A stretch of DNA of 64,000 nucleotides from a virus. Numbering within the stretch: position 1 is the stretch's first letter; every line of letters starts with the position of its first letter. The notes beneath the pieces were generated by a model that was given only the letters and a program-made list of their open reading frames with translations, searched no databases and was not told the DNA's origin. The position numbers and the translations under genes were made by a program. Shown here in pieces: positions 15,549-45,992 of the stretch. The stretch covers positions 124,001-188,000 of IMG/VR virus record IMGVR_UViG_3300021142_000002. One strand, written 5' to 3'.

Positions 15549-16010
15549 TTACCAACCTATTTGATAATAGGTCAGCACCAGCGTATCGCCTATCACATAG
15601 TGATAGATTTTGCTTCCCTCCGTGGTTTCTTCAACCACCACTTCTGACAGTGATTCGGTATCACCGTCAACAAACTCCCCTTCATAAACCTCATTTATCT
15701 TTTTTAATGTCAACCATCCGGTTGAACGGCCAACCTCTTCCTCATATCTGAAGTCAGAGACCTCTAATTCCCTCCCATAATCTAACCCCGTTCTGAGGTT
15801 GGTTACTTTACTGCCAGCGGGCAGTGGGGATTTGGTACGGTTTCTGTATCCCAATCCCCAGATTTCAGCGCCTGGGAAGATGCTGACTACTGGGGTATTA
15901 GGGTCTAGGATATAGTTTCCCACCACTATATCTTCCATGTCTTGCTCTTCGATAATCACAGAGCAAAGTAATCCGTTATCGAACGGTGCAACTTTTGTAT
16001 ACATTCTCAT
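15549..16010 (-). CDS. Unknown protein encoded by a hairpin-tiled gene, copy 1 (153 aa)
   Basis: No family recognised. Acidic protein (FRYEEEVGRSTGWLTLKKIN; EFVDGDTESLSEVVVEETTE) with strand-rich ends. The gene is more GC-rich than its neighbours and is covered with short perfect inverted repeats, for example ACCTATT/AATAGGT, CTATCA/TGATAG, GTGGTT/AACCAC, ACTGCC/GGCAGT, GATATAG/CTATATC and TTGCTCT/AGAGCAA. It is preceded by a 96-nt leader shared with two other such genes, has GCAGGAGAATGAA before ATG, and stands alone between two terminators. Strong early expression is plausible. The protein function is unknown. Confidence 0.7.
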   Translation of the reverse strand: MRMYTKVAPFDNGLLCSVIIEEQDMEDIVVGNYILDPNTPVVSIFPGAEIWGLGYRNRTKSPLPAGSKVTNLRTGLDYGRELEVSDFRYEEEVGRSTGWLTLKKINEVYEGEFVDGDTESLSEVVVEETTEGSKIYHYVIGDTLVLTYYQIGW

Positions 16011-16015
16011 TTCAT

Positions 16016-16111
16016 TCTCCTGCCTCTTTAGAGGGCTTAAAGTTGTTATAATAAATTGGATTACTAATGTAATTCCAATTAAATGATATATACATGAAAA
16101 TAATTTGAATT
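16016..16111 (-). promoter_or_regulatory. Conserved promoter/leader module, copy 1
   Basis: 96 nt that match the module at 25934-26029 almost base for base and the one at 35422-35521 more loosely. Read on the minus strand it has an AT box (TGTATATATCATTTAATTG, related to the general promoter motif), a hairpin built on TTGGAATTAC/GTAATCCAA, a second small hairpin CCTCTAAAGAGG, then GCAGGAG and the start codon. Confidence 0.75.
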
Positions 16112-16121
16112 GACATAAAGC

Positions 16122-21514: not shown

Positions 21515-24289
21515 ATGACAACAGTTAACAATAGTACACCTATGGTGAATCTAAATGGGATTAGAGATGAATCTATTACCCAGTTAGTAGCAGAGCCAGA
21601 ACAAACCCCCCAGCATTTAGCACTCTATTTTATTAAAGCACCTTATGGTCCAGAAGGTATAGCTGATGCTATTCCAGTATCTTCTGCAAATGATTTAATG
21701 CGTATTTTTGGATCTGATGTTGTTAATCCAAGAGCACCTTATTATAATCATCAAACTGAATTGATGACACAAACATTGGCTGCTGGCAACTCAGCTTTTG
21801 TTAAACGAATTATCTATACCGGAACTGATGTAAATGGTGCTTTAAATGTAGCGCCTAATAAAGCTAACTTTACTTTAAACTGTCAAGTAACTGCCAATGC
21901 TTCTTTACCAACCTATGCTCGTAATCCTGATAACAGTGTTAGCTATGATTCTAATGGAAACATTATTCTAACTACCATTACCGTTGGTGCAACTACTGGT
22001 GTTGCTACCTTTGGAACAATTTCAGGCGGAGCAGGCTATAGCGATGGTACTTATACCAATGTTACTTTAACTAGAGTTTCTGGTACAACACCGACTACTC
22101 TACCTACTGCTACAGTAATAGTCTCCGGTGGTGCTGTAACTACCGTTACATTAACGACGCCCGGTGTTGGTGTTGATACCACTACAGTATTAACTGCTTT
22201 GGTCGGAACTGCTACACCTACTACTGCATGGAGCGTTCCTGTTGCTACTACTGCAACAACCGCACCTTTAACAGTCGGTCAAAAATACATTGTAGCTAGT
22301 TTAGGTAATACAACCACTGCTCAATGGGTAACTGCGGGTGTTGTACTAGCTAGTGGTCAAACCACAGTTAATGTTGGTCAATCATTTACTTGTGCGGCTG
22401 AAACTGTAGGTACCGGTACAGTATCTCCAGCCACTACTGGTAGTATCTTAAAGTATACTATCACTGCAAGTACTGCCTCTACTCCAGCAACCACAACGTC
22501 TACTGTTAGTACAGTTAATGGCTTAACCGTAACGACTTATCCTATTCTTACTTTTACTGCACCTTTCTCAGGCGGCTTAGGCAATCAAACAGGTATTCGT
22601 TTATGGACTGCTGGCAATACTACTTCTTTGCCAGGTGATAGAGATGTTATCATTGATCAAAAAGCATTGATCTTTAATGGTCAGGTTATTTTTAAACCCA
22701 CTAACTCTACACCTCAGTTAGTAGCTGATCTTACTGGCTCTACTAATATGCAATTTTGCTTTAAACCAAATGCATATAACTATAAAACTAACCAAAACTT
22801 AAACATTGGTCAGTTTGTAGATAACTGGAGTGATGATGGTGTTATTTCTGGCAATACACCTTCTTATAGCCCAGTCGGTTCAGTTACTTTAATCAATGAT
22901 GGTACTGGTACACCTTACCTAAACACTGTATTAAATGCATTATTAGCTACTGAAAATGCTGCACACTTAATTGCTCAAGCTGCTGATACTATTTCAGCCA
23001 CTGCATTAACTGTTGGTAGTAAATACTACATTGCATCGGCAGGCGCTACTGACTTTACTACTATTGGTTCAACTGACAATAATGTCGGCACAATCTTTGT
23101 AGCTACTGGTATTGCATCAAGTCCATCTAGCGGTGTAGCAGGTACTGTATATCCAGTTGATGTAGGTCCAATCTCATCTGGCTATATGTTAGACTTTTTA
23201 ACAGGTATTGATTTTAATGGCAACCCACATATGTCATTCCAGATTGACAAAACTGGCGTGGTAATGGCTGAAGGTGTAACTACTTATTTAGTTAATGGAA
23301 CAGCAGGTGGTGTAGATAACTTAGGTTATGAACAAGCTATTTGTGATTTCATTACCAGCGTGGGCGCCAATGATTCACATCCATTACTGGATATGGCTGT
23401 ATATCCCTTTAAAAACGTTTATGACTCAGGTTTTGGTCAATTCCCTGTAGGTCAAATGGCAGGCTATCCATCTATGGCGACAAAACTTGCCTTATTTAAA
23501 TGGATTGGCTATCGTAAAGACATGAATGCTACTGTTGGAACATACATCGTAGGCACTCCTCAATTGACTGTAGCTCAAGAACTATCAGTCGGTAAGGTAT
23601 TATCTACCTCTGCATTAATGTATGGTGAGAGCGCATTATGGGGCACACCTACTTGTAGAGCAGTGATTACTATGGGTTCAGGCCTATTGAATAACTCTAC
23701 CTTTAATGGTCCAGTACCGACTACCTTTGACTTAGCCATTAAACGAGCTGGTTATATGGGTGCAGGTTCAGGCATTATGACCTCGGGTCAAAACTATACC
23801 ATTAATCCAAAGAACAATGTTACTTCCATGCGCAAGATTACCAACACTATTTTAGGTCAAACAACTAAGATTACTGCATGGAATGAAGGTTTAAATTATG
23901 TTCAAATGATGGATCGTCGTACTCCATTCTGGGCTGATTTACAAACCGTCTATAACATTCAAAACTCTGTCTTAGCCAGTGAGTTGTTTATGTCTATTTG
24001 CTGCGACATTACACAAATTGCAGCTAAGGTATGGCGCATTATGTCTGGTCGTACTAATTTAACACCTGGTCAATGGGTTGATAAAACAAATGAATTAGTT
24101 AATTCATTAACTGCTGGACGTTATGATGGTTTAGTAGTAATTGTTCCTACTACTTATTTTACACCAGCCGATAATGCCCGTGGCTATTCGTGGACTCTAG
24201 ACATAGCTGTTTATGGTAATGTAGCTAAAACTGTACAAACAGTGAACATTATCACTAAACGATTATTACCAACTACTACAGGACTATAA
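21515..24289 (+). CDS. Contractile tail sheath protein with inserted surface modules
   Basis: 924 aa, long for a sheath. The N-terminus (YFIKAPYGPEGIADAIPVSS, LMRIFGS, TQTLAAGNSAFVKRI) and the C-terminus (VYGNVAKTVQTVNIITKRLL) read as tail sheath, and the next gene is the tube, as in PhiKZ gp29-gp30. Three Thr/Gly/Val-rich modules interrupt it: residues ~153-232 (GGAGYSDGTYTNVTLTRVSG), ~252-308 (LTVGQKYIVASLGNTTTAQW) and ~498-548 (LTVGSKYYIASAGATDFTTI). They resemble repeat modules common in surface proteins of aquatic phages and probably decorate the outside of the sheath. AGGAAG precedes ATG. Confidence 0.88.
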   Translation: MTTVNNSTPMVNLNGIRDESITQLVAEPEQTPQHLALYFIKAPYGPEGIADAIPVSSANDLMRIFGSDVVNPRAPYYNHQTELMTQTLAAGNSAFVKRIIYTGTDVNGALNVAPNKANFTLNCQVTANASLPTYARNPDNSVSYDSNGNIILTTITVGATTGVATFGTISGGAGYSDGTYTNVTLTRVSGTTPTTLPTATVIVSGGAVTTVTLTTPGVGVDTTTVLTALVGTATPTTAWSVPVATTATTAPLTVGQKYIVASLGNTTTAQWVTAGVVLASGQTTVNVGQSFTCAAETVGTGTVSPATTGSILKYTITASTASTPATTTSTVSTVNGLTVTTYPILTFTAPFSGGLGNQTGIRLWTAGNTTSLPGDRDVIIDQKALIFNGQVIFKPTNSTPQLVADLTGSTNMQFCFKPNAYNYKTNQNLNIGQFVDNWSDDGVISGNTPSYSPVGSVTLINDGTGTPYLNTVLNALLATENAAHLIAQAADTISATALTVGSKYYIASAGATDFTTIGSTDNNVGTIFVATGIASSPSSGVAGTVYPVDVGPISSGYMLDFLTGIDFNGNPHMSFQIDKTGVVMAEGVTTYLVNGTAGGVDNLGYEQAICDFITSVGANDSHPLLDMAVYPFKNVYDSGFGQFPVGQMAGYPSMATKLALFKWIGYRKDMNATVGTYIVGTPQLTVAQELSVGKVLSTSALMYGESALWGTPTCRAVITMGSGLLNNSTFNGPVPTTFDLAIKRAGYMGAGSGIMTSGQNYTINPKNNVTSMRKITNTILGQTTKITAWNEGLNYVQMMDRRTPFWADLQTVYNIQNSVLASELFMSICCDITQIAAKVWRIMSGRTNLTPGQWVDKTNELVNSLTAGRYDGLVVIVPTTYFTPADNARGYSWTLDIAVYGNVAKTVQTVNIITKRLLPTTTGL

Positions 24290-24291
24290 TT

Positions 24292-25176
24292 ATGGCCAGT
24301 GTTGCAACTTATAACAATCCAACATTAATACAGATGAGTGGGGATGTTCGTACCCCCTCTATTGACCTGTCACAAGGCGGTCAACAAGGAATGTTGCAAA
24401 ACCCAATGTTGTGGGGCAATAATGCTAACTACATTAGACAAAAAACAATTCCTGTATTAGTATCAGCACCTCGATTAATGGGCTTATTGTCTAATGCAGG
24501 ATATCGCATGGCGGCATTAAAATCATTAATGGAATTAATGCCTCAAAAAATTGATGGTTTAAAATCCAGTTTATCAGCAGATTATGATGGTCAAGCAGTC
24601 GGCCATGCTGGTGAGAAAATGGAATCAGTTACTCATGTGGCCCGTGAAGTATCAGCTCCAAATTATGAGTGGGTTGATAAATATGGTATGGCCATTACTC
24701 GTTACTGGACAGATTACATGCGAATGTTTATCGCTGATCCAGATTTACAAGTACCTGCTATTATTCAAACACCTGAGTATATCAATGCAGGTAGTCCACC
24801 TATTACACCAGAATCTCAATCTATGGTTATGCTATTTATTGAGCCTGATGTTACGATGACTAATGTAACCAATGCTTGGCTATGCACTAACATGATGCCA
24901 AGAACCGCTGGTGAAATCATTGGTGTTAGAGAAATGGGTGGCAGTAATGAGATACCTACAGTAGGTATTGAGTTTACTGCATTAACCTTTATTGGTAAAC
25001 CAGTAGAGTTATTAGCAGCTAGTTACTTAGCATCTTTGAAACTAACTGACTTAAGACCATTAGATCTAGCACAAAAGTATAGTCAAAATGGTTCACCAGG
25101 CGGTGTTAATAGTGATGTATTGGCCGCTGGTGCTGGTTTTGCACAAGAAATTGTTAATACAGTAGTAAATGGATAA
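24292..25176 (+). CDS. Tail tube protein (PhiKZ gp30-like)
   Basis: 294 aa, starting 2 nt after the sheath stop codon, so the two are co-translated. Sheath followed directly by tube is the standard order in contractile-tailed phages and matches PhiKZ gp29-gp30. The middle (MVMLFIEPDVTMTNVTNAWL, MPRTAGEIIGVREMGGSNEI, VGIEFTALTFIGKPV) has the alternating strand pattern expected of tube proteins. The N-terminal ~75 residues are helical. Followed by a palindromic terminator. Confidence 0.8.
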   Translation: MASVATYNNPTLIQMSGDVRTPSIDLSQGGQQGMLQNPMLWGNNANYIRQKTIPVLVSAPRLMGLLSNAGYRMAALKSLMELMPQKIDGLKSSLSADYDGQAVGHAGEKMESVTHVAREVSAPNYEWVDKYGMAITRYWTDYMRMFIADPDLQVPAIIQTPEYINAGSPPITPESQSMVMLFIEPDVTMTNVTNAWLCTNMMPRTAGEIIGVREMGGSNEIPTVGIEFTALTFIGKPVELLAASYLASLKLTDLRPLDLAQKYSQNGSPGGVNSDVLAAGAGFAQEIVNTVVNG

Positions 25177-25235: not shown

Positions 25236-25927
25236 CTAGAACAATCTGCGGGTAATAAAGTCCGCCACTTCATTCATGTCATCCACTGACGGGAATGAGG
25301 CGTTTTCCCCTATCAAGTTAAATTGTGGAACGCGATACTGCGCTCCGTTTAACTCCACCTTATAGAACCATATCCCAGCTTTGTTCTGGGATGATTCTAA
25401 CACCTTTGCACCGCTAACCCAAACTCCCTCATATTCTGGGAGTTCATTTAAGAGGATTTTGCACGGCATGCCATCGGGGATGGCATAGTCTTTTTCTTCA
25501 ATGACTGAAGAAGTTAAAAGAGGTTCTAAGACCTCTAATACTTCGTCAACTAACCAGCTGGTTACTTCTTCAACTTTTGCTGGAGGGCATCCTCCAGCAA
25601 TGAGTAGGAATTTACCAATTAACTTCTCAACTACTACTCCGGCGTTATTGCCACTAAGCGCATCCTTAGTCTTTAGTTTTTTTCTGACAGAGTTTAACAC
25701 CCTTTCTGAAAGGGTGTAACTTGTCACAAAGATTTCTGCAGTACACTGCAGAAGTCCAAGAAACTTTTCTTTCCCTAAATCTTCAGCGGCGATTGCCACC
25801 TGATCTAGGTGGAGCATAAACTCTTCTACTTCATCTGATCCGTATGGGTCAAATGACATTGAAGAGTTTTCAACCAATCTTACCAGACCATCGGCTATTA
25901 AGCCTTTGTCAAATTGTATTTTTTCAT
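25236..25927 (-). CDS. Unknown protein encoded by a hairpin-tiled gene, copy 2; frameshift near the start
   Basis: About 230 aa, acidic and helical (EVTSWLVDEVLEVLEPLL). The uninterrupted frame has no ATG before MSFDPYG, only a TTG at 25877. The ATG at 25927 with the leader's GCAGGAG site opens a 9-codon frame ending at TAATAG. The good frame continues upstream as KIQFDKGLIADGLVRLVENS to within a few bases of that ATG. One more A in the A6 run after ATG would give MKKIQFDKGLIADG. This is a sequencing error, a mutation, or slippage. The gene is tiled with hairpins (TTGCTGGAG/CTCCAGCAA, ACACCCTTTC/GAAAGGGTGT, TTCTGCAG/CTGCAGAA, ATGCCATC/GATGGCAT). Family unknown. Confidence 0.65.
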
Positions 25928-25933
25928 ATCAAA

Positions 25934-26029
25934 TCTCCTGCCTCTTTAGAGGGCTTAAAGTTGTTATAATAAATTGGATTACTAATGTAATTCCAATTAA
26001 ATGGTATATACATGAAAATAATTTGAATT
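25934..26029 (-). promoter_or_regulatory. Conserved promoter/leader module, copy 2
   Basis: Nearly identical over 96 nt to copy 1 (16016-16111): same AT box, TTGGAATTAC/GTAATCCAA hairpin, CCTCTAAAGAGG hairpin and GCAGGAG. Conservation at this level in non-coding DNA upstream of unrelated ORFs indicates function or recent duplication. Confidence 0.75.
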
Positions 26030-26039
26030 TACATAGATA

Positions 26040-34445: not shown

Positions 34446-34739
34446 TTATTTAAAGTTTTTCTTATTATAATGTTCACCCTCAATGTCTTCAATTACTGAT
34501 AGTTTAGAAATATCACATTTCTGCGCATACAGCTGAATACTGTCTTCAGTTTCAGTCTTTACTTCAACTGACCCATGATACACAACTTTAAATACCATTG
34601 TTTTGCTTTCAGTCATAAATCGGTTTACTACTTTACCGATAGCGCCTAAATGCTTAGTTTCTAGAGATATTACAGTATCTCCAATATCAAATCTAAAGTC
34701 CTTGAAGAACTCCTCATGATTAAGACTCTTAATTTTCAT
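34446..34739 (-). CDS. Hypothetical protein (97 aa)
   Basis: No family recognised. FRFDIGDTVISLETKHLGAI resembles the SH3/KOW-like strands of small nucleic-acid-associated barrels. GAGGAG before ATG. It stands alone between a promoter-like motif and a palindromic terminator. Confidence 0.55.
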   Translation of the reverse strand: MKIKSLNHEEFFKDFRFDIGDTVISLETKHLGAIGKVVNRFMTESKTMVFKVVYHGSVEVKTETEDSIQLYAQKCDISKLSVIEDIEGEHYNKKNFK

Positions 34740-34865: not shown

Positions 34866-34901
34866 GTATGGAAATGAGAGCTATAGCTCTCATTTCCATA
34901 C
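34866..34901 (-). terminator. Perfect palindromic terminator after the third hairpin-tiled gene
   Basis: 36-nt perfect palindrome, left arm GTATGGAAATGAGAGCTA, 8 nt past the stop codon at 34909. The coding end itself forms another hairpin (GATTGGAC/GTCCAATC). Confidence 0.8.
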
Positions 34902-34908
34902 GATTGGA

Positions 34909-35415
34909 CTATGCCGTCCAATCGTTATCATCTTCTTTAACCTGATCTTCCTCCTCCACTGGGAAGATCAGGTCCCAGTGGGGTTCTTCAAGTAATACTG
35001 GGCGTGGCTTTGTCACGTATTCGCAGTCGCTTAATGCGACTATTCCGGTCCATTGACCGGATTCCCCCCGGTAATCGGGGTCAGTATACTTCCCCATAAC
35101 AATGGGGTGACGGCCATCGTCATGGTCATTTTTGCACATTGTGACTCCCTTCACAATGAACTTATGCCCCTTGGGGCAATATAACATCTGTCCCTCAAAG
35201 GCCGTTAGAGACCATATGGCCTCTATGTCTCTTAATAGATCTAAAATTGGTTGCAACTGCCCTTCTGGGCAGCTGAAAGCAGCGGATATTACTATCCGCT
35301 GCATGTTCTCTATATAGAGCAGCATCCATCTGGGGGTGCTCTCTTCCTCATACTCGTGCGAGTATGTGGCAACAAACTCATTAACCATTTGCATCAAAAT
35401 TTCAAAAATGTTCAT
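34909..35415 (-). CDS. Unknown protein encoded by a hairpin-tiled gene, copy 3 (168 aa)
   Basis: No family recognised. N-terminal helical part (MNIFEILMQMVNEFVATYSH), a Cys/His segment (MLYCPKGHKFIVKGVTMCKN) that may bind zinc, and a very acidic C-terminus (VEEEDQVKEDDNDWTA). The gene is GC-richer than its neighbours and at least a dozen perfect hairpins are strung along it, roughly one every 30-40 nt, e.g. CTGATCTTCC/GGAAGATCAG, TCCGGTC/GACCGGA, CATTGTGA/TCACAATG, GCAGCGGATA/TATCCGCTGC and CATACTCG/CGAGTATG. It has the shared leader and GCAGGAG site, and stands alone between terminators. Confidence 0.7.
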   Translation of the reverse strand: MNIFEILMQMVNEFVATYSHEYEEESTPRWMLLYIENMQRIVISAAFSCPEGQLQPILDLLRDIEAIWSLTAFEGQMLYCPKGHKFIVKGVTMCKNDHDDGRHPIVMGKYTDPDYRGESGQWTGIVALSDCEYVTKPRPVLLEEPHWDLIFPVEEEDQVKEDDNDWTA

Positions 35416-35421
35416 ATCAAA

Positions 35422-35521
35422 TCTCCTGCCTCTATGAGGACTTTAAAAGTTATAGTAAGTTGGATTACTTATATAAGTTAATCCATTAAAATAATATATA
35501 CATGAAATTTTTTTTTGAATC
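35422..35521 (-). promoter_or_regulatory. Conserved promoter/leader module, copy 3 (divergent)
   Basis: Same architecture as copies 1 and 2 but with base changes. The AT box is TGTATATATTATTTTAATGG, the main hairpin GGATTAACTT/AAGTAATCC keeps its pairing with changed bases, and the short hairpin is CCTCATAGAGG, then GCAGGAGATTTGAT and ATG. Changes that keep the stems suggest the RNA structures are selected. Confidence 0.65.
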
Positions 35522-35548
35522 CATTTTTAGATAAAAAAAAAGAAATAA

Positions 35549-38423: not shown

Positions 38424-40064
38424 CCTTTTTGTTCCATTAATTCGTTAGATTAATGCGGTGTGCAAAGACACCCGCCCTTACTTTCATAAGGGAGCAGATC
38501 ATATCATCCACCTATTTGTAGGTGGTTTCCCATTTCTTCCCACTTGGGGTCTACAGGGTGGTAAGCCCTTGATCGTTGAACGTTCTCCATGTATTCTAAT
38601 GAATATTTAGGAGCTTCGCTGCTGATTGCCCAATCTTTATTATTTTTAAACATTCATATTTCTTTTCAAAAATACAGTAGTTAATAAAGCTCTAAGGGAT
38701 TTCCAGCAATTAAGGAAAAACGAATATAATATTACTATTATACCGGACTAATTATTTAATTAAACAACTCTTCAATGATCCAGCCATTATATGGCATTTT
38801 ATAATGTAATCTATTTTTAAGGGTCTTTTTATCTAAACCTAAATATTTACGTAATGTTGCCGAGCTATTGAATTTTAAAATTTCATTATCTTTTATGTTA
38901 GTTATAATAAAATTTCTGGGAACAGAATGTTTAACTGTATAAAAGTTATCTAACCATTCTTTATCACTTTTAGATCTAAAAATAAAATTACCAATAGCAG
39001 TTTGCCGTTCAGAATAAACAGCTTTACGTACCATTGAAATATCAGTATTTGTTATTTTAGCCAGAGTGGTTGCATGTTCTGCATGTATTATTTCACCAGT
39101 TTCAATATTTTTAGCTTCATATCCGTTTGTATTCTCAATTATTTGATTTCGTTTTTCTGGTGTAGTGTAATACCATTCTGTAGTGTCATTGATATCTTTA
39201 ATTTCAAATCTTTTACAGAATAGTCTAGGTATTAAAATGCCATTAATTAATTTCTTAAATGGTCTGTTATGGAATTTTAATCCAATACTTTTAAACCCAG
39301 CAGTGTGAGAATGGTACTCAGTTATAGTATTATTTAAATAATCTCGTATAACACAGCGCTTATTATCAGTTCTTAAATTGCTAATAAAGGCATGATTATT
39401 ATTTTCTCTTGGCGTAACCCATTCCAAATTAATTATACGGTTATCTAATTTATTACCATTTTTATGATTAACATAAATTTTGTTACTTATATCGCTATTA
39501 TATATAAATGCTTTAGCCATCAGCAAATGTGTACATACGGGACGCCATCTATTTTTATCAGGATCCCTAATATTAACACATGGATATCCATAAGGATTTA
39601 GTCTTATACTCATTTCTAAATCTTTATTTTTATATAACGAAATAACTTTACCATTCTTATTTATAGCAAAATTAGTAAAACCAGGAATTATTCTAAACCC
39701 ATTCTTATAAAGAATAGGGTTAGTAAAATACATTACCATACCACATCTAACCTTTAATACCCTGCTAGTTATTGGCATAAATTTTATTTTAACTAATTCA
39801 TTAAGGGGTAACTTTACATCATAATGGCATAATAAACTAACCCATGTTTTATCCAATTGCACTATTTCACCAGAAATTTCTATATCAATAAATTGATCGT
39901 TTAAAACTATATCTTTTCCCTTAAATCTATAATTTCCATTAATATCAAATGAATGGTCTTCATTAAGATAAAATTTTTTATACATGTTATTTAACCTATA
40001 AATGATTGAATGTGTGTATAAATAATATATATCTTAAAGAAATTTGTGTTTATTAAAAGGAATA
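38424..40064 (-). other. Group I intron with HNH ORF in RNAP beta
   Basis: Boundaries inferred from protein continuity: exon 1 ends GGTGAT, exon 2 starts AAAGTC, intron ends in G. Minus-strand core elements of group I introns are visible: AATTGCTGGAA (38701-38711), GTTCAACGATC (38571-38581) and TGATATGATCTG (38495-38506). The core from about 38522 to 38690 is clearly similar to the intron at 44022-44534. The HNH ORF lies in the 5' part, starting 79 nt from the splice site. Confidence 0.85.
38756..39985 (-). CDS. Intron-encoded HNH homing endonuclease
   Basis: 409 aa. The central part carries a NUMOD4-like segment (GFTNFAINKNGKVISLYKNK) and an HNH_3-type nuclease (IYVNHKNGNKLDNRIINLEW followed by VTPRENNNHAF), with the catalytic His in VNHKNGN and the Asn in NLEWVT. 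The C-terminal part has NUMOD1-like DNA-binding modules (YEAKNIETGEIIHAEHATTL, TDISMVRKAVYSE, then a second near VKHSVPRNFIITN). It would cut intron-less alleles of the RNAP gene and spread the intron. It may also mobilise the ORF-less intron in the beta-prime gene, which sits at the same target sequence. Confidence 0.9.
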   Translation of the reverse strand: MYKKFYLNEDHSFDINGNYRFKGKDIVLNDQFIDIEISGEIVQLDKTWVSLLCHYDVKLPLNELVKIKFMPITSRVLKVRCGMVMYFTNPILYKNGFRIIPGFTNFAINKNGKVISLYKNKDLEMSIRLNPYGYPCVNIRDPDKNRWRPVCTHLLMAKAFIYNSDISNKIYVNHKNGNKLDNRIINLEWVTPRENNNHAFISNLRTDNKRCVIRDYLNNTITEYHSHTAGFKSIGLKFHNRPFKKLINGILIPRLFCKRFEIKDINDTTEWYYTTPEKRNQIIENTNGYEAKNIETGEIIHAEHATTLAKITNTDISMVRKAVYSERQTAIGNFIFRSKSDKEWLDNFYTVKHSVPRNFIITNIKDNEILKFNSSATLRKYLGLDKKTLKNRLHYKMPYNGWIIEELFN

Positions 40065-43000
40065 ATCACCGCAATTCATTGGCAGCTCACCATCTATATA
40101 GATTTTAATAGCCAATTGATTTTCTACCACTTTCTTACCTGCTATTCGTACCGTCTCATCTATTCGTCCAGTCTTAGCTTCATCTAATTGATATCGCTTT
40201 ACACGCTTAGCTCTATTGGAGTCATAATACTCTGCAATCTTTTGCAAACTAAAATGCATATCATCTATTTTTCCATAGTAAACCACTTCAATATCAGTTA
40301 CTTTACCATAGACTTTAGCTTTCGGATTATTAGCGTTAATAGCTGTTAAAGCCTTAATAGCTGCGGCATCTTTAGCATCCACATTCTCGCCAATAGCCTG
40401 CTCTAAAGTACATAATATTGTTTCAGGGTCCACTACATCACCTATTTTTACTAGGTTATGAATGATGGTATCAAAGTCTACTATTACCCCGTGCAGAGTC
40501 GTTGTAGGCGTTACTAATTTACTAGCCAGTTCACTAGTAATAACTGATCCATCTTCAGTAACATCCATATTTTCTACTAAAGCTACTTTACAAATTAAGC
40601 TGCCTTTATAGACAACATTTCTAGGATTTATTTCTGATCTTTGAAAGAATCCAGAGTTAAAGACTAATGCATCACCTTTTTTAAACTGATGTCCTTTCTT
40701 TAAATCACTGATTCTAGTATGAGGTATAGTAACACCCGATACAGTACCATGATAAATACCTAATTCATAATTAACCAGTCTATCTTTACCATACTTAACA
40801 GTTAAAACATCTTTTTTATTATCTTCTACAATACCATCTTCTTCTGCAGTAACAACAAAGATATCATCTGCTTTAGCACCAATGACTTCTTCATAACCTG
40901 TTCTATAATGACTAGGATGATATCCATTGCAGGCAACTGTATGACTATCCTGAATGCCTTTATAATTTACGCGTTTACTATCATCGTGACTTAATGAAAC
41001 ACCAGCTAGGGTGGTACTACTTAATGCATTAGTGGCCCCATCTTTCTCATGATTAAATTCTCTAGTAACTCCTCTTAAATTGACAAAGTTAGGATTAGCT
41101 GTAAAGTATGCTCTAATACCTACCTTAGCACTATCTGGAGTAGACTCCGATATAACACCTAAATCCTTTTCATTATAAGCTCTAGTCTCCTTTACCATTG
41201 TTTCAGCAGATCTACCACCTGCGCCGCCATGAGTAAAAGATTCATGCTCCTTTAGATTGTGCAGTGGATTACTTTCTTCTACTAATGATACTGACTGATC
41301 TTGAATGATATCTAGCCAAACCGATTTAGGATTAATAGTCACACCCACATTACTCATACTACCACCTGCCCTGTGAGTACGCATAGCAGTAATCAATTGA
41401 TGGTATAACAAGCCCGATAGTCTTTCATAACCTTTATACCTAACTGCATTTAAATCATGTACAAAGTCATCCACTAATAAGCTATTAGCTCTTAATAATA
41501 AATGATAAAAATCAGTAGGCTCTCCCATCTCCTTTAATAGATTAAGAGTAATGGGTTCCATCCACATATCAAACATTAGTTTTAGTTCTCTTAAGTGATA
41601 ATTAGTGACACCTAATCCACTCATTAAACTACTGTAAATATTAGGTCTATTAAAGTCACTTCCTTTATATTTAGAGATATCATTTTTAATAGCCAGTAAT
41701 CCACCGACTATTAATTTATCTGCAGGTTTAGTTACTGTAATAACGTAGACGATATCTTTAAACTTTAGTTTAACTTCATCTGGATGATAAGCTAATCTTA
41801 CATTAGTTGCTGAGAGTGTAAAAGGTATTTGTAATTTCTTTAACATCTCATCTAAACCAAAGAGATAAGAAAAAGCTAGGCCTAATGGAATACGTCTATT
41901 AAAGACTGACATTTCAGAATATTCAATAGGTCCATTACCTAATGATGGATCTATTAAATAAGGTATAGTGCCTAATTCCTCAATTGAATCAGCTTTGGTG
42001 GATCTAATACCACTACCCCAGAATGTATAAACAGTCCCCTCATTATCCATTCCTAATAAACCTAATCCGCCAATTAACTCCCCAACTACCACGCAGTCTT
42101 CATCCTTAATTTTTTCATATAAAGAATGATCGTATTCATGTAATTTCTTTTCTATAGCAAAGTCTAAATGATATTGGAATCTAATAATTCCATCTACTAA
42201 AAATCTTCCACAGTCAAAACTGGTAATTGCTTCACAAATAGCCGTATAAGCTCTAGGTAATTGCAGATTCTTTATTTTATTAATACCATAGAGTAGATTA
42301 CCAATAGTTCCATCATTTTTAGTAAATCTATTTATAATCTCTTTTAAAATCCATTTACTGTAGTTACTTGCTACACTTTCATTTCTAGTAACAAATATCT
42401 TTCCATAATAACTAGTCAAAGAAACAGTATTAGATTTTACCTTAAAAATTGGAAGTTCTCCGCGCTGACTAGTTAAAGAATAGCGTATTCCACCAGCTAC
42501 GAAAGTACCATCAGCATTAACTACTGGTATAGTAAAATGAATAGTACTCGCCTCCCCATTAATAGGTTGCAGTGATACACTGTAGGTATCAGATTTAGTA
42601 ACTGCATTATTCTTTCTTTTTACTTTAATATCCTTTACTATTACCCCACCTTTGTGTAAATTTAACACTGTGGCTATAATATCTTTAGGCAATACTTCAG
42701 TAACGTATTTACTCGTAAATTCTTTCATGGTAGAGTGTAGCATACTCTCATCATGAATAGTAATACTTTCATCTAATAATTTAGTATCAGTAATAGTTAA
42801 ATCATTATCGGTAATTGCCATTTCCTCTAGTGTCTTGCCAGAGCCATGAGGGTCTAATATTGTCTTATACTTTTGACTGAGTTTTAATAATCCTTTTTGT
42901 TCAGCTTCAGATAGAGCACCCATTTCTCCAGCTTCTTTAATCTTCCTTACAATGACTTCGTTAGATACTAAATCATTTTCCCCTAAGTCCTTATCATTAA

Positions 43001-43847
43001 TATCTACAATGTCTGGATTGTTAGGTGTTCTTAAAGCTACTATACCATCCAGAAAGTGATATAAGCTATTCATGCAGACTTCAGGATCTTCATGTGACCA
43101 ATCTAATAGATCCTTTAATCTAATGATAATAGTATTATTTAACTCTACAAAGACTAGATTAACATGTTCGATCGCTTCATCAGATACTTTAGTAATAACT
43201 GATTCAATACTAGGGTTAATGATTCTCCATAATTCTAATAAGTCAAAACTCTCATTAGTGTGAAAATCTGCTAGTCCATTACTCGTAAAGTTCTTAGTAT
43301 ATTTACTTAAGTCAGATCGAGTAGGCAATATCTCTGGCAGTAGATATCTAATAAAGTGCTCTCTCCTACCACCAATCTGATTAATCATATCCCACATAGT
43401 CAGTCGAATGTTATACCATTCTTGATAGACGACTAAGGTATTATTAGTATACTTATTTAATCTAGGCAATAGAGCATAGTTAATAACAATAGGGGCACTA
43501 TTGTTACTTAATGACCTATCTAGATTAGTCAATGGTTTAATATTTAGATGTGTTTTTTGATATCGTCTGATAACATTATTAATAGGTATATTGGTGCTAC
43601 TTACATTGCCAATACCTACCTTTAAATGTAGCATGTGATAAATATAGATTGGGCTACTATTTCCATTTCTAATTAAACAATAGGAGTTGTCTATCCCTAC
43701 TGTTTGATCAGTTTCCCCAATATAGTGAATAACACTATTACTGGGTAGAAAAAACTGACTCGATGGATTATGTTTACCACCATTGACTATCTTACCAATG
43801 GGATAAGTCAAAAACTTTTTATCCCATTCTTTTATTGGTAAATACAT
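40065..43847 (-). CDS. Virion RNA polymerase beta subunit, exon 1 (PhiKZ gp178-like)
   Basis: 1261 codons; with exon 2 the protein is 1330 aa. Beta features: SDDSKRVNYKGIQDS-like region (LSHDDSKRVNYKGIQDSHTV) corresponding to the DxNRxxxGxxMQRQA segment; a barrel (EEDGIVEDNKKDVLTVKYGK); and the end IKIYIDGELPMNCGD, which is interrupted by the intron. The frame runs three codons into the intron and stops. The C-terminal ~200 residues of a bacterial beta are missing here and are encoded at 62074. TAGGAG overlapping the end of the beta-prime gene drives its translation. Confidence 0.85.
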
Positions 43848-44021: not shown

Positions 44022-44534
44022 CGATTTGTTCAGATGAAGTCGTTAATTTCACCTCGCAGCATTACCTGCAGCTATAACTCTCGTTATAGACCAGACTATA
44101 TCTTCTACCTATTAATATATTCATTAATATACCAATAGGCAGCTTCCCATTTCTTCCCACTTGGGCTTTACACCGTGGTTAGCGGTTAGTCGTTGAACGT
44201 TCTCCATGTATTCTATAGAATATTTAGGAGCTTCGCTGCTGATTTTCTCTACCTAATAGTTTTCAAACATTGGTATTACTTTTCAATAATACAGTAGTCT
44301 ATTAGTCTAACAAGATGTTCCAGCAATTAAAGAAGAATCTATCCCAGTATTACTACTGAGTAGGACACTGATACTTAAACTATTTTATACTTAAAATGCC
44401 AATCTGAATTAATGGGTATTCCATTTAGATTCCTAATAATAGCTTTTCGGTTTACTCGAGTAACACCTTCAGCTATTTATAAGTATTACGATAAAAAGTA
44501 TTCAGAAAAATAAGTACAACTAGAATAAGCTAGA
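44022..44534 (-). other. ORF-less group I intron in RNAP beta-prime
   Basis: 513 nt. Exon 1 ends GGTGAT and exon 2 begins AAAGTC, the same junction as in the beta gene, and the intron ends in G. Minus-strand core elements: AATTGCTGGAA (44318-44328), GTTCAACGACTA (44187-44198) and AAGATATAGTC (44094-44104), which is the group I S element. The central ~170 nt match the beta-gene intron closely. No endonuclease ORF is present. Confidence 0.88.
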
Positions 44535-45992
44535 ATCACCATCGAAATCTGCTTGTAATCCTTCGGGTTTAGAACTGTGTACCGATACTGAATCTATAAA
44601 AGGTTGTCCTTTAATAGGCATGTTTATAGCCTTAGATTCATTTTCTACAGGACACCAATTATCATCCAATCTTTGCAGAATTTCTGTTTTTACTGTTGTT
44701 TGCAGGTAAACCATACTGCAGTAAATACTGCCTGTACCTACAATGGGATATCTTGTTATATAGGTAGCTACTTCTTTACTTTGTAGATAAACGGAAATAT
44801 AAAACATTTCAGTCCAAGTAATAGGTGCTACATTCTTTCTATCTAAACGTTTAGGTAAATCAGTAATGTCATAAAAGACCCTAAAGTATTTATCATCCCT
44901 ATAAAGCAATGCTGCATAATGACCATCTATTATAATAGGCTTATGCCTTGCATCTAATTTAGCATAACCAGTTAATAGTTTTTCAATACCTTTTTCACTG
45001 CCCCAATTATCTTTAACAAAAGTAGAAGGTGTAATCATTCTTTCTTCTAATGTCTTGCTATCGACTACCCAGATATCATTAGGTAAGTTATTGACTATTC
45101 TATTCATTGGACCTGCTTTAATTCCATAGATAGATAGCTCAGTAGTACCCTTTAAATACTGGTGTAAACCACAGGTTGTATCATTAACAGTAACTGCATC
45201 TATATCGCCTAATTTCTTAGGAGCAGGATCAATTGCAGTGATTACATTTCGTGTTCCGCCATGAATACTGCGGCTTGCCCATTTGGATAAGAAGAATCCT
45301 CTTTTACCCTCAAGGATAGATTCTATGTAATCATAGATGTTATTAAATCCTAATTGGAGAGACCATCTAACAGTATCTAAGATGGGATCATTTTTAGCGG
45401 TAGAGAAAGTAGAAATAGTATTAGCAGATCGCATGACTTTTCTATAAAGCGCGTTAATGTCATCTTCAACAGTTCTTTTATTTTCATCTATTTCAATGTC
45501 TCTAAGACCTGCTGGAATAACGACTAAATACCGATACATACATTTTTCATGAGACTTATCTAGAAACTTAATTCTTAAATCTCTAATCGGTGAATTATTT
45601 TCAGCATGTAAGATATCATGAAAGTGTTCCATAAAGAAGGCATAACCTGTTCTGCCATCTATGATATTAGATTTTACAAAGTCTTTTAGATTATTATCCC
45701 AAGTAGCATAAGCTGCTCCAGACATAATAAGTTTATATAAACCTTTTAATCTAGTGAGTTCTAAAAAGACTTTAGGATGCATGACTTCAGTACGCATGTC
45801 TATATAAGACAGTCTTCTTTGTCTAGTAGGTGATCCAAGATCACCAAAGATAATAGATGAATATAAACCTTGTGGATTAAATGATCCATCAATGGTATAA
45901 ATATCCATTGACTGAGTAGGCAGTAAGCCTGCTAATCGACTCTTATCAGGAGAGAGTAGATATAAATTAAATGGTAATCGCTTGAGTGCCAT
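44535..45992 (-). CDS. Virion RNA polymerase beta-prime N-terminal part, exon 1 (PhiKZ gp180-like)
   Basis: 486 codons ending in QADFDGD, the universal catalytic metal-binding motif of the beta-prime subunit (residues 482-486), where the intron begins. The total product is 540 aa. Other beta-prime features: SFNPQGLYSSIIFGD, QRRLSYIDMRTEVMHPKVFL, and the SKWASRSIHGGTRNVITAID region. The remaining beta-prime part is not in the window. Packaged virion RNAP is injected to transcribe early genes. AAGGAA lies before ATG. The gene is divergent from the lytic virion gene. Confidence 0.87.

Follow-up and report, generated by a model that had tools for sequence, protein, structure and literature searches.

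A coding sequence laid out in hairpins

Why would a phage gene be tiled along its length with short perfect hairpins? The gene that raises this question lies at 34909-35415 on the minus strand of a 64,000-nt window (the whole stretch of DNA analyzed here), which is taken from a virus record of 220,366 bases (bases 124001-188000). We know of no coding sequences in dsDNA phages that are tiled with perfect short hairpins more densely than the genomes of ssRNA phages. Should the pattern be selected, it would add a new level to how phages express their genes or evade immunity; should it come from mutation, the genome would preserve a striking trace of template switching within coding DNA. In both cases the question is testable, as four genes in one genome carry the pattern.

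Homologues of the terminase, tail sheath, tail tube, PhuZ, MCP, and ChmA were all found in the record (the ChmA match being weak, E 1.5e-7), and by these matches it is classed as a phiKZ-like nucleus-forming jumbo phage, with a terminase at most about 46% identical to those of named phages. Over the whole 220-kb record, ~210 genes were called, with a mean GC of 0.33 and a mean GC3 of 0.244 (sd 0.058). The focus gene (507 nt, 168 aa) encodes an orphan protein with predicted N-terminal helices, a CPxGH...C motif, and an acidic tail; no family was found for it in Pfam, PHROGs, NCBIfam, or PADLOC, and its structure model is of low confidence, too poor for use. Searches by tblastn and pattern scans of phages, plasmids, IMG/VR, and genome contigs found no divergent homologue, the only matches being copies 99.97-100% identical, all from the same phage population.

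A sequence-only reading of this locus had listed twelve perfect inverted repeats without giving the strand of the gene, which is the minus strand. All twelve are present and perfect, each where it had been placed; several extend further than listed, 34900-34925 having a 10-bp stem and 34940-34973 a 12-bp stem. Further, weaker inverted repeats occupy some of the spaces between them, at 35021-35039, 35056-35072, 35108-35122, and 35199-35239. Read in the direction of translation, the first 49 nt of the gene are hairpin-free, and the first hairpin in the coding sequence lies at 35349-35366 (7 bp, loop 4). It is followed by (i) two hairpins in 35257-35302, namely 35279-35302 (10 bp, loop 4) and 35257-35272 (6 bp, loop 4); (ii) weaker interleaved inverted repeats at 35199-35239 (5-6 bp, loops 8-14); (iii) two hairpins in 35137-35178, at 35165-35178 (5 bp) and 35137-35158 (8 bp); (iv) two in 35092-35122, at 35108-35122 (5 bp) and 35092-35107 (6 bp); (v) two in 35044-35080, at 35066-35080 (5 bp) and 35044-35061 (7 bp), which the alternative at 35056-35072 links; and (vi) a hairpin at 35025-35041 (6 bp), with an alternative at 35021-35039 (5 bp), together occupying 35021-35041. 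Toward the 3' end, two interleaved hairpins occupy 34940-34981, one at 34956-34981 (9 bp, loop 8) and the other being the 12-bp hairpin (loop 10), with their arms ordered A-B-A'-B'; a last hairpin, at 34900-34925 (10-bp stem, loop 6), spans the stop codon. All of these features are on the minus strand.

Excess over synonymous shuffles

Hairpin coverage was defined as the share of a gene's length taken up by perfect Watson-Crick hairpins with a stem of at least 5 bp, a minimum strength, and a loop of 3-8. The observed values were compared with synonymous shuffles that keep the protein and codon use, and with a second set that also holds dinucleotide counts nearly constant. Perfect short hairpins take up 205 of the 507 nt (40%) of the focus gene, as against 57 nt in the synonymous shuffles (0 of 100 reach 205); the dinucleotide-preserving set likewise gave an expectation of 57 nt (11%), with 0 of 120 reaching the observed value (z 5.8). 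The sequence-only reading had proposed a comparison of folding energy with synonymous shuffles, and here too the gene differs strongly, with a local folding energy of -174 kcal/mol versus -112 kcal/mol in the dinucleotide-preserving set (z -8.0). The folding excess is nearly equal on the two strands (z -8.0 for the sense strand and -7.0 for the antisense strand). The hairpin tiling of the focus gene is thus far beyond chance.

The gene is also richer in GC than its surroundings, as had been noticed (GC 0.47 versus the mean of 0.33 over the phage's genes), and GC-rich sequence generally folds more strongly. The hairpins could accordingly be pictured as a by-product of high GC or codon bias, or as chance; however, shuffles with the same GC, codon use, protein, and dinucleotides yield only about one-fifth to one-fourth of the hairpin coverage, and the 55% GC phage LucasX has coverages of at most about 0.26 among its top-ranked genes. 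The shuffles rule out chance, GC, and codon bias as the cause, and we give this explanation virtually no credence. Among the genes listed for sm033, LucasX, and the first 50 kb of phiKZ, none is as extreme, the top coverage being that of LucasX. The flanking genes are unlike the focus gene, again as had been noticed: those tested, at 34446, 33016, and 35891, have perfect-hairpin z values of 0.6-0.9.

Four tiled genes behind one leader

The focus gene had been read as a single case, and its own tiling holds, but three other genes, two of them inside the window, are tiled likewise and had been overlooked. The four among the ~210 genes are those at window positions 34909-35415, 25236-25877, and 15549-16010, and at L003:3778-4242 (genome position 23,778), with hairpin coverages of 0.40, 0.28, 0.29, and 0.35, respectively. 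All four exceed both the synonymous and the dinucleotide-preserving synonymous shuffles. In GC3, too, they rank first to fourth in the phage (0.42-0.54, versus the mean of 0.244), with the focus gene at 0.54. The second (25236-25877, minus strand; z 5.6) is an orphan, as is the third (15549-16010, minus strand; 153 aa, z 5.2). With the exception of the gene at 23,778, discussed below, the proteins of the tiled genes are orphans in Pfam, PHROGs, NCBIfam, and PADLOC, and no paralogy was detected among the proteins encoded behind the leader described next.

A leader of ~100 nt precedes all four tiled genes. The genome holds exactly six full copies of it, all on the minus strand, and the coincidence of tiled genes with leader genes has a Fisher p of 6e-8. 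Three of the six copies are 98-99% identical: that of the focus gene (35416-35530, minus strand) and two further genome copies, to which it is about 98-99% identical. By sequence comparison, the copies of the second and third tiled genes (25928-26030 and 16011-16115, both minus strand) belong to a second class. The focus leader contains a putative early-type promoter, recognized as the sequence motif AATTTCATGTATATATTATTTTAA at 35486-35509 (minus strand). The shared element contains TTTCATGTATATATTATTTTAATGG, which is near the published OBP/N1M2 promoter consensus TTTCARRYAKATATTATYWAAGTG, the OBP promoter having been judged early (PMC7058600); the motif in the shared leader has two mismatches to the pattern used. 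In addition, the focus leader has an inverted repeat, a hairpin close to the Shine-Dalgarno sequence (35429-35439), and the Shine-Dalgarno sequence itself (35423-35430). The shared element ends, ahead of the start codon, with GGCAGGAG, which by its sequence would provide a strong ribosome-binding site. The hairpin next to the Shine-Dalgarno sequence appears to keep its pairing despite changed bases (CCTC/GAGG versus CCCT/AGGG). Folding of the 5' region of the leader is no better than that of shuffles. At the 3' end of the focus gene lies a terminator-like hairpin (34866-34901, minus strand) with a 16-bp stem, a tetraloop, and an A/T-run.

The remaining two leader copies precede a short ORF (on L007) and a 151-aa gene (L009:1624-2079). 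The leader of the latter is ~99% identical to that of the focus gene, yet the gene is barely tiled (z 1.0); its GC3 is 0.38, and its 6-base inverted repeats are in less marked excess (12 versus 4.5). With a near-identical leader and a barely tiled gene, it offers a natural control against which to judge what the tiling does. The plus strand of L009:1624-2079 contains long runs of C.

Among other phages, the same leader was found only within the same phage population; a partial match in a Bacteroides phage was marginal (E 0.09) and was left uncounted. In IMGVR_UViG_3300021127_000026, a record of the same phage (L011/L013), both contig ends lie inside leader copies, which indicates that the repeated leader breaks metagenome assemblies.

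A probable one-base frameshift at 25919-25924 makes the annotated start of gene 25236 uncertain. At 25919-25928 (minus strand), the ATG behind the leader of this gene opens a frame that closes after nine codons, and this nine-codon frame and the long tiled ORF are one frame apart, at a run of six A. The frame break is either an assembly error, slippage, or a broken gene.

Insertion of the cassettes and the question of a donor

The nearest relative available is contig G002, in which one flanking protein is 55% identical. In G002, the 93-aa and 263-aa proteins on either side of the focus region have homologues that directly adjoin each other, and three other small genes of the focus locus are likewise missing. 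Nor does G002 have the other two in-window genes: it contains no tiled gene between the terminase and the gp026 homologue, where 15549 would lie, and other small ORFs follow its tail tube gene in place of 25236. By this comparison, the three in-window tiled genes are insertions relative to G002.

The putative promoter, the terminator, the odd composition, and the insertion make the cassettes moron-like, morons being accessory genes that bring along a promoter and a terminator of their own and were originally described in lambdoid phages (PMC1524935). As judged from sequence evidence, a lone gene lies here too between a putative promoter and a terminator; its composition is unlike that of the rest of the phage; and it is inserted between genes that are neighbors in a relative. 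Unlike morons as described, however, these cassettes have several near-identical leader copies that all lie on the same strand of a jumbo phage genome, and their coding sequences are hairpin-tiled, a property that the moron concept does not include. Mobile regulatory cassettes of T4-type phages, reportedly described by Arbiol et al. in 2010, are said to have spread a repeated early-promoter element through the genome. The repetition of such an element across a phage genome is shared with our phage, which differs in that the genes following the element have folded coding sequences.

An insertion history invites the explanation that the cassettes were captured, already GC-rich and tiled, from a phage group whose genes are generally of this kind, and that they are slowly losing both properties in an AT-rich recipient. 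This would fit with the tiled genes being the phage's top four in GC3, with the absence of the three in-window genes from the same loci of G002, and with the intermediate GC3 and inverted-repeat count of the barely tiled L009:1624-2079. However, no donor was found by the searches run on IMG/VR, INPHARED, PLSDB, and GTDB contigs, and GC3 and hairpin excess are unlinked across the other genes of the phage (rho -0.002). Moreover, a donor would merely shift the question of why there are hairpins to another genome. We consider a donor origin unlikely.

Anatomy of the tiling

In the tiled genes, only inverted repeats whose loops are of hairpin size (about 3-9) are enriched, most strongly at loops of 4-5; loops above about 10 and direct repeats show no enrichment. 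Palindromes with a loop of 0-2 are less enriched than those with loops of 4-5. Stems of intermediate and of high GC are both enriched, by about 4- to 6-fold. Hairpins overlap less often than under random placement (2 versus 8.8, P = 0.003; 7 versus 17.7, P = 0.001), and the first 24-49 nt of each tiled coding sequence are without hairpins, as translation would require.

Stems are spread evenly over the three codon registers (16/15/13), and the real amino-acid order is itself hairpin-prone, being matched by 0 of 60 permuted orders; therefore, the process or selection that made the hairpins reached amino-acid positions. The sequence-only reading had attributed the pattern to selection through codon choice. 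Consistent with this, most of the hairpins disappear from shuffles in which protein and codon use are kept, but codon choice is only part of the matter, since amino-acid positions were shaped as well.

Two natural systems offer a comparison. In the ssRNA phages MS2 and Qbeta, coding sequences likewise fold better than synonymous shuffles, and 53-60% of bases are locally paired, similar to the 52-59% in the tiled genes; in contrast, perfect short hairpins cover 6-19% there and 28-40% here, in four genes only of a dsDNA phage. Perfect stems of at least 8 bp number 11 in 2.1 kb of tiled genes versus 7 in 6.8 kb of MS2/Qbeta, whereas stems with one mismatch number 2 versus 15. In the mitochondria of Nematomorpha, perfect inverted repeats occur in protein-coding genes (PMC6649704); there, as here, the protein and the hairpin are kept together, but those palindromes reach 284 bp and lie in conserved respiratory genes, whereas ours have stems of 5-12 bp and lie in orphan phage genes.

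Selected or templated hairpins

The perfection of the stems and their indifference to reading frame bring forward the strongest rival to selection, namely that template switching or quasi-palindrome correction during replication made hairpins that have no function, with the events falling in rapidly evolving accessory genes. Perfect hairpins are known to arise, and to be maintained, through template switching (PMC8794818). The stems of the tiled genes are perfect far more often than those in MS2/Qbeta coding RNA, they ignore codon register and reach amino-acid positions, and the pattern is present in intermediate- and high-GC stems and on both strands, all of which would fit with template switching, as such mutations make perfect hairpins irrespective of the reading frame; in yeast, such events occurred only under high transcription (PMC3820800). 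Template-switch mutations are known, however, as single events, and no report that they tile a gene was found. The process would have to hit the four genes linked to the leader while leaving about 200 others untouched, strongly expressed genes among them. Direct repeats and copy chains are not enriched, on which ground iterated copying was rejected. The hairpins keep clear of one another and of the start region, for which overwriting and translation could account in part, and the GC3 of 0.42-0.54 in the tiled genes (still 0.43-0.46 outside stems) goes unexplained. A reverse transcriptase was also searched for as a source of hairpins, and none was found. On balance, templated mutation is the main rival, but we regard it as rather less likely than not.

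The symmetry of the perfect stems on both strands could also reflect a role at the DNA level, with the hairpins acting in single-stranded or supercoiled phage DNA, for example, in recombination, in packaging, or as protein-binding sites. By eye, however, no stem or loop sequence is common to the hairpins; the hairpins are confined to transcribed cassettes and are missing at the start codon; and the lesser enrichment of palindromes with loops of 0-2 also speaks against such a role, which we consider very unlikely. An asymmetry of G-U versus A-C mismatches showed no difference for the sense strand, but MS2 and Qbeta are symmetric too, so this measure is powerless; loop base composition was similarly uninformative for RNA versus DNA. 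As far as the sequences can tell, symmetry cannot separate RNA selection, single-stranded DNA selection, and templated mutation.

High expression was rejected as a sufficient driver of hairpin formation, as the MCP, ChmA, and sheath genes show the same modest excess as the terminase and RNAP genes, tiling being absent from the capsid and ChmA genes. The tail tube gene is an exception, with structure that does not come from perfect hairpins. This homologue of phiKZ gp030 (24292-25176, plus strand) has a folding z of about -5 to -6 versus synonymous shuffles, and its homologues in phiKZ, sm033, LucasX, and G002 show a weaker folding excess. Local folding z values of -5 to -6, with no marked excess of perfect hairpins, were also seen for L006:5877-6959, which is without a PHROG match, and for L009:11748-13016 and L005:11695-12138, which match a virion structural protein and a NUDIX hydrolase, respectively.

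Proposed moron-like cassettes with protected messages

We tentatively favor an explanation in which the tiled genes belong to accessory moron-like cassettes whose mRNAs are kept as rows of protective small hairpins, although we hold it at somewhat less than even confidence. In each cassette, a single small GC-rich gene would follow the shared leader, which would supply an early-type promoter and a strong ribosome-binding site, and would be closed by a hairpin terminator; like a moron, the cassette would sit between genes that neighbor each other in the nearest relative. The four messages would be folded from about codon 9-17 to the stop codon into short perfect hairpins, mostly non-overlapping, with stems of 5-12 bp and loops of 3-9. 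These hairpins may be retained since they would make the messages poor targets for single-strand-RNA nucleases or for RNA-guided defense during infection. Selection on the transcript is suggested by the spacing of the hairpins, by the start region without hairpins, and by the link to a single leader; we infer early expression, action at the RNA level, and a protective role. Stems of at most 12 bp are short for RNase III.

Several observations count against protection of RNA: the equal folding excess on the two strands, the barely tiled L009:1624-2079 behind its near-identical leader, the unexceptional MCP and ChmA genes, and a leader whose 5' region folds no better than shuffles. Furthermore, the shaping of amino-acid positions is costly if RNA protection alone is at stake.

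The proteins of the cassettes could be counter-defense factors, and one of them, that of the gene at 23,778, resembles a Csx20-type ring nuclease. Csx20, known from four phage genomes, breaks down cyclic tetra-adenylate (PMC12409355). The 23,778 protein matches Csx20 models at an E of about 1e-4 (22.3 bits, E 1.4e-4; PADLOC E 2.4e-4), but its score is far under the curated cut-off of the family (22.3 versus 70 bits), and the focus gene is unrelated. The single-sequence model of the 23,778 protein, examined for a CARF-like fold, is poor (pLDDT 47.5) and gave no structural match. We take the weak Csx20 match as a lead toward counter-defense and not as family membership. The gene at 23,778 also matches p002 of Rhodothermus phage RM378, a distant relative at 28% identity, whose DNA is without such hairpins, which at this identity is a weak test.

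A more specific version of the favored explanation holds that early counter-defense messages are armored with hairpins so that type III and type VI CRISPR systems and ribonuclease toxins cannot read or cut them. Nucleus-forming phages stay open to RNA-targeting type III and Cas13 systems (PMC13282480). We regard this version as unlikely; if it were true, the phage would be shielding the very transcripts that disarm RNA-targeting immunity.

Other features of the window

A group I intron lies at 44072-44386 on the minus strand (Rfam RF00028, 77 bits) and is the sole match to a known RNA family in the window. It is situated between a 1264-aa ORF (40053-43847) and a 490-aa ORF (44520-45992), both of which resemble, by eye only, parts of a multisubunit RNA polymerase; the intron may therefore split an RNA polymerase gene. 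At 38756-39985 (minus strand), a 409-aa protein is encoded that, by eye, is similar to NUMOD/HNH homing endonucleases.
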